The notes under the pieces were generated by a model. That model searched no databases. It was not told the origin of the DNA and saw nothing but the letters and a program-made list of their open reading frames with translations. 64,000 nucleotides of DNA from Utricularia gibba (Eukaryota; Streptophyta; Magnoliopsida; Lamiales; Lentibulariaceae). Position numbers and translations under genes: made by a program. Of the stretch, positions 13,541 through 15,010 are shown in pieces. The stretch is taken from NCBI GenBank assembly GCA_002189035.1, contig NEEC01000007.1, positions 2,108,001-2,172,000 of the forward strand, written 5' to 3'. Every line of letters begins with the position of its first letter. Positions within the stretch are counted from its first letter, which is position 1.

Positions 13541-15010
13541 ATGAGCGCCGAAGACTCACTCAGATCTCTTTCCCTCGATTACCTCAATCTCCTAATCAAC
13601 GGCCACGCCTTCAGCGACGTTACTTTCACAGTTGAGGGCCGCCTCCTCCACGCCCACCGTTGCATCCTGGCGGCGCGTAGCCCCTTCTTCCGAAAGTTCT
13701 TCGCTGGAGAGGAAAAGCGAACCCCCGTCGTGGTGCCTGTGAATTCCGTCGGATACGAAGTGTTTTTGCTGATGCTTCAGTTCTTGTACAGTGGGCAGGT
13801 GTCGATCGTGCCCCAGAAACATGAACCTAGACCCGATTGCAACCAACGGGGCTGCTGGCACACGCATTGCTCCTCTGCCGTTGATCTCGCCCTCGAAACC
13901 CTCGCCGCCGCCAGGTCCTTTGGAGTCGAGCAGCTCGCTTTGCTCACTCAGGTTGTTCCGGGTTTGGGGATTCTTTCCTGATTCATGAGAATAATATGTG
14001 ATTATAATTTCTAGTGGTGAAGATTTCTCCTTTCTTGCAAAAACATGACGTTTTTCGAGTTTGGGATTCGCCCTCTCTACTGTAAGAACATTCCCTTTTT
14101 GGAACCTTGACTGCTCTATTTCATGACTCAGTCCCATCCCATCAATTGTTTCCTTTTTTGGCTCCCTGTGTGGATCTTATTTATATGAAATTGTGCTGCA
14201 GAAACAACTGATGATCATAGTGGAAAAGGCTTCGATCGAGGATGTGATGAAGGTTCTGACTGCATCAAGGAAGTACGAGTTGCACCAACTATGGACCACC
14301 TGCTCCCAATTGGTTGCCAAATCCGGCCTGCCGCCGGAGATTCTTGCTAAGCATCTCCCCATCGAGACGGTGGCGAAAATCGAAGAGCTCCGCCTCAAAT
14401 TCCCGCATTCCGGCCGACCCCTTCTCTCTTCACACCACACCGGAATCGATATAGAGGACCCAAAACTCCGACGGATGCGGCGAGCACTCGATTCCTCCGA
14501 TATTGAGCTCATCAAGCTGATGGTGATGGGCGAAGGGCTGAATCTTGATGCAGCATTGGGGTTACACTACGCGGTTGAGAACTGTACTAGAGAAGTAGTG
14601 AAAGCGTTGCTAGAACTTGGTGCTGCGGATGTCAACTACCGCGCAGCCCCAAGCGGGAAAACCCCGCTTCATCTAGCGGCGGCGATGGTGTCCCGGAGAT
14701 GGTGGCGGTGCTGCTCGACCACCATGCTGATCCCAACAGTCGAACCGTCGACGGGATCACGCCCTTGGATATTCTTAGAACCCTAACTTCCGACTTTCTA
14801 TTTAAAGGTGCAGTTCCGGGGCTGTCACACATTGAGCCCAACAAACTCAGGCTTTGCCTTGAGCTGGTACAGTCGGCGGCGGAGGTGATTTCGAGGGAGG
14901 AAGAGAATGCCGCCGCCGTTTACCCTCTGACGAGAGATGATCAAAGTGGCAGCCGCGCTCCGCAAAGGGTACATGGCTCTTGTTCTTCTATCTACCACCA
15001 CCGGTATTAG
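13541..15010 (+). CDS. BOP: BLADE-ON-PETIOLE (NPR1-like BTB-ankyrin) with apparent frameshift
   Basis: Exon 1 is 13541-13951 and exon 2 runs from 14202 to about 15010. BOP proteins are nuclear/cytoplasmic BTB-ankyrin co-regulators that work with TGA bZIP factors and in CUL3 ligases to set organ boundaries, leaf proximal patterning and abscission. The BTB/POZ domain covers residues 1-90. The NPR1-type zinc finger is C100, C105, H107, H109, C110. The helical linker contains KASIEDVMKVL and GLPPEILAKHLP, and ankyrin repeats start at MRRALDSSDIELIKLMVMGEGLNLD. After LHLAA the frame breaks at 14691-14696, where one C of a short C run appears missing. The family sequence resumes in the next frame (MVAVLLDHHADPNSRTVDGI...). 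With the base restored in count only, the protein would be about 406 aa; the C-terminal tail is shorter than in the 470-490 aa relatives. It may be a genuine mutation or an assembly error. Confidence 0.88.

Follow-up and report, generated by a model that had tools for sequence, protein, structure and literature searches.

A single-base frame break in a BLADE-ON-PETIOLE gene of Utricularia gibba most likely stems from an assembly consensus error

Results

Gene structure

The window analysed here (G000:C213:2108001-2172000), a stretch of 64,000 nucleotides, carries on its plus strand a two-exon BLADE-ON-PETIOLE (BOP) gene (Table 1). The BTB, DUF3420 and ankyrin matches, together with homology to paralogs in the same genome, bear out the original prediction that the gene belongs to this family. 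The N-terminal BTB/POZ domain of the BOP clade is found in exon 1, and the ankyrin repeats are present in exon 2, split by a one-base break such that they form a single frame only if the consensus is wrong. The start codon (ATG, 13541), splice donor (GT, 13952-13953), splice acceptor (AG, 14200-14201), Cys/His motif and terminal TAG are all in place, and no second lesion was found in the rest of the gene, in agreement with the earlier view that everything but the break is intact. The NPR1_like_C domain (PF12313) is absent from the window, and a profile search of the genome matched it only in an NPR1-type gene on C411, which is additional to the BOP copies. At 14900-15010 the window gene lacks the (Y/F)LNL tail motif kept by four paralogs (L018, L019, L020 and L021); its tail falls about 30 residues short of theirs and ends in SSIYHHRY.

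Table 1. Coordinates of the BOP gene and of its frame break within the window
Feature	Position	Strand	Description	Evidence
BOP exon 1	13541..13951	+	BTB/POZ and CNQRGCWHTHC motif, open frame, 137 aa	Pfam BTB E=1.2e-18; translation
BOP intron, GT..AG	13952..14201	+		sequence; junction between LLTQ and KQL identical in paralogs
BOP exon 2, whole	14202..15010	+		
BOP exon 2 before break	14202..14693	+	DUF3420 and most of ankyrin match	Pfam DUF3420, Ank_2; 71% identity to C402 paralog
Frame break	14691..14696	+	one base fewer than all four paralogs, Ser codon third position	alignment with four BOP paralogs
BOP exon 2 after break, next frame	14694..15010	+	last ankyrin repeat, C-terminal region, TAG stop	84-86% identity to paralogs; dN/dS 0.05-0.08 vs close paralogs
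Premature TAA if consensus read as written	14784..14786	+	331 aa product	

The frame break at base level

Positions 14685-14702 read ATG GTG TCC CGG AGA TGG, with a run of three C at 14692-14694. One frame proceeds through ...TPLHLAAAMVS to about 14693 and then as RRWWRCC... to the premature TAA, confirming the stop at 14786 that had been predicted for the sequence as written. The next frame takes up with PEMVAVLLDHHADPNSRTVDGITPLDIL... at about 14694 and runs to the TAG at 15008-15010. BOP homology reaches within one codon on either side of the break, and both halves match the genome paralogs contiguously, so that the break must be a net loss of a single base and neither an intron nor the product of chance; the predicted one-base frame change is thereby confirmed. 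In the alignment, the TC-CCGG of the window faces TCG, TCA, TCG and TCG before CCGG in the four paralogs. The absent base is the third base of this Ser codon, where any base is possible; it need not be a C, since all four have G or A there. The original prediction of a C run one base short thus stands as regards the missing base and is too specific as regards its identity, the shortening of a C4 run to C3 being one option among four, possible but not established. Likewise, the suggestion that most ankyrin repeats would be lost was overstated: before the break the Ank_2 match already spans positions 7-69 of the 90 in the profile (the C402 copy spans 7-89), and what the break takes away is the C-terminal region and about one modelled repeat, the last.

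These features also bear on the notion that the plant does carry the break but bypasses it, with the protein restored by a programmed ribosomal frameshift or by a tiny intron. Constraint on the downstream sequence in the shifted frame (see below) would agree with such a bypass, but the base is kept in four of four paralogs. Furthermore, an intron across the break was rejected because homology continuous to within one codon on either side leaves no room for it, and a programmed frameshift was rejected because there is no X XXY YYZ slippery heptamer around GTG TCC CGG AGA. A bypass is hence extremely improbable.

Constraint on the window copy

In pairwise comparisons of the window BOP with its three close paralogs, dN/dS is 0.07-0.09 upstream of the break and 0.05-0.08 downstream; the corresponding values for the divergent C2 copy are 0.10 and 0.13, resembling other comparisons that involve C2. 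No residue is unique to the window BOP in the 75 codons downstream of the break, as against 9 of 214 upstream, where the close paralogs have 4-5. This pattern shows purifying selection on the sequence 3' of the break. Given that constraint is not relaxed downstream and that no other lesion is present, an old lesion is very unlikely, and only a very recent lesion or an error fits well. An old pseudogene spanning the entire locus is therefore scarcely credible. The one disabling lesion and the shortened tail would suit such a reading, but the downstream dN/dS against the close paralogs stays low at high dS, the splice sites are intact and, the frame break aside, there are no stops. Neither the relaxed constraint nor the multiple lesions of a pseudogene were found in the window gene.

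Other BOP copies in the genome

The original prediction had called for a search for more BOP copies, and four were found in the genome: C402 (~352k), C505 (~1.927M, minus strand), C505 (~2.904M; C505b) and C2 (~3.720M). Two of these four, C402 and C505:1.927M, have frame breaks in conserved exons, where alignment identifies the out-of-frame changes as short losses at C or T runs; an additional frame loss appears, as read by eye, in the tail of C402. The interruptions in C505b and C2 were dropped as frameshifts, since by eye they resemble extra short GT..AG introns. Both putative introns start with GT and end with AG, are predicted to be in phase 0 (by eye) and have apparently been gained, that of C2 (L021, ~3720.3k) between KLM and VIGEGL and that of C505b (L020, ~2903.7k) in the variable loop after ELRIQ. 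The C2 copy is the most divergent, with 42 unique residues of 289, and is without the CxxRGCWHTHC motif that the other four copies have. No second, near-identical assembled copy (haplotig) of the window BOP, as a source of the other allele, was found in the genome.

Frame breaks in other conserved gene families

The error rate was estimated from censuses of the GRAS, HSP70 and KCS families in the same genome, plant genes that often have long exons lacking interruptions. A gene was scored as split when hits in different frames overlapped or lay less than 40 bases apart, too close for an intron to fit. Splits between frames affect at least 10 of roughly 45 GRAS genes (about 26 domains being unbroken), two HSP70 genes (C451 and C496) and two KCS genes (C4:3.824M and C402:0.782M). 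About one-fifth of the genes in these families are broken without intron room. The break rates, approximate because they were counted by hand from tables, are one per 3.4 kb in GRAS, one per 5 kb in HSP70 and one per 12 kb in KCS, and from them the chance of a break in a coding sequence of BOP length is 10-30%. The other long conserved exons of the window, about 10 kb, show no break; the local error rate lies at the low end and may be below that in GRAS genes.

When the usable cases were aligned in a frame-aware manner with intact paralogs of the same genome, nearly all proved to be single-base losses, among them two HSP70 genes (93% and 94% identity) and one GRAS gene (85%). DNA alignment to near paralogs placed most losses within C or G runs or next to them, one C-run site being common to two GRAS paralogs. 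GRAS loci with introns or too divergent references (L060, L063, L064, L071 and L078) were excluded from the error count, as were L069 and L070, which also contain stops. Several GRAS loci (L061, L073, L074 and others) break near profile position ~131-140, where a Gly-Gly-Pro-Pro-like motif is encoded by a C-rich run, in what looks like a recurrent homopolymer error site. A GRAS gene near a contig end (L062, G000:C414:3443700-3445300), 99% identical to the intact L042, shows several out-of-frame losses within a short stretch, perhaps reflecting poor coverage of the contig end. Two HSP70 loci (G000:C241:16598-18511 and G000:C304:2235549-2237462) have identical exon-by-exon scores and are probably one locus assembled twice (a haplotig) or a very recent duplication.

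Discussion

The frame break in the window BOP very probably reflects a single base wrongly deleted from the assembly consensus, in a gene that would otherwise be normal and probably functional. This reading derives from the pattern across the assembly and not from the base itself. The signature of one-base loss recurs in other BOP copies and in the GRAS, HSP70 and KCS families, unrelated conserved genes in which it is biased to single-base losses at runs, and constraint downstream of the break is not relaxed. The original prediction had treated a real lesion and a consensus error as equal candidates; the genome-wide evidence strongly favours the error. The error would be of the kind expected from long reads whose polishing was incomplete, presumably the technology behind the assembly. 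Published error profiles of long reads consist mainly of false deletions where a base is repeated 2-8 times, and some non-repeated bases are lost as well (PMC12007338). Several observations nonetheless speak against a consensus error: the C run at the break is only three bases long and the missing base may lie outside any run, the window has some 10 kb of further long exons without a break, and the slightly larger number of unique upstream residues and the short C-terminus are compatible with weaker constraint on the window copy. If the break is a consensus error, the living plant would carry an intact BOP frame here, and the product is predicted to work like other BOPs, as a BTB-ankyrin co-regulator recruiting TGA bZIP factors and also as an E3-ligase adaptor.

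It is unlikely that the window BOP was knocked out by a genuine, recent deletion of one base (fixed or heterozygous in the sequenced plant) while other paralogs cover for it, though this reading has more in its favour than a bypass or an old pseudogene. Redundancy is plausible, as the genome has five or more BOP copies, and the loss would be buffered by the two others that have no small-indel break; the (Y/F)LNL motif lost here and kept by the other four copies, and the slight excess of unique residues upstream, also lean this way. Yet highly conserved unrelated genes bear the identical signature, and with constraint unrelaxed and a second lesion absent the deletion would need to be very young. 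Were it real, the break would amount to an ordinary loss of one of the several copies of a developmental regulator. It could then be viewed as post-duplication gene loss caught at an early stage in this lineage, with the other copies of the organ-boundary regulator acting as a buffer.

The break matters mainly as a warning on gene models from this assembly. To judge from the three families surveyed, such models would wrongly present a substantial minority of the intact genes (about one-fifth) as truncated or pseudogenic, and claims of gene loss based on the assembly therefore need read support. The situation resembles the gene-fragmenting indel errors described for long reads (PMC12007338), in that single-base deletions, mostly at short homopolymers, split otherwise intact genes across the assembly; it differs in that the error is here deduced from the assembly pattern alone.

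The window gene itself departs from the BOP clade in being one base short in exon 2, and from its paralogs in a shorter C-terminus without (Y/F)LNL; a C-terminal deletion has also been described for PtrBPL1 of poplar (PMC10682204). In other respects it conforms to the BOP1/BOP2 (NPR5/NPR6) clade of the NPR1-like BTB-ankyrin family, with BTB, DUF3420 and ankyrin domains, no NPR1-type C-terminal domain, and an exon junction shared with its four paralogs in the genome. The clade is further marked by interaction with TGA bZIP factors and by expression at organ boundaries. Whether the break is an error or real, the family to which the gene belongs is well known, its members being BTB-ankyrin co-regulators that work with TGA bZIP factors (PMC10682204, PMC6381062).
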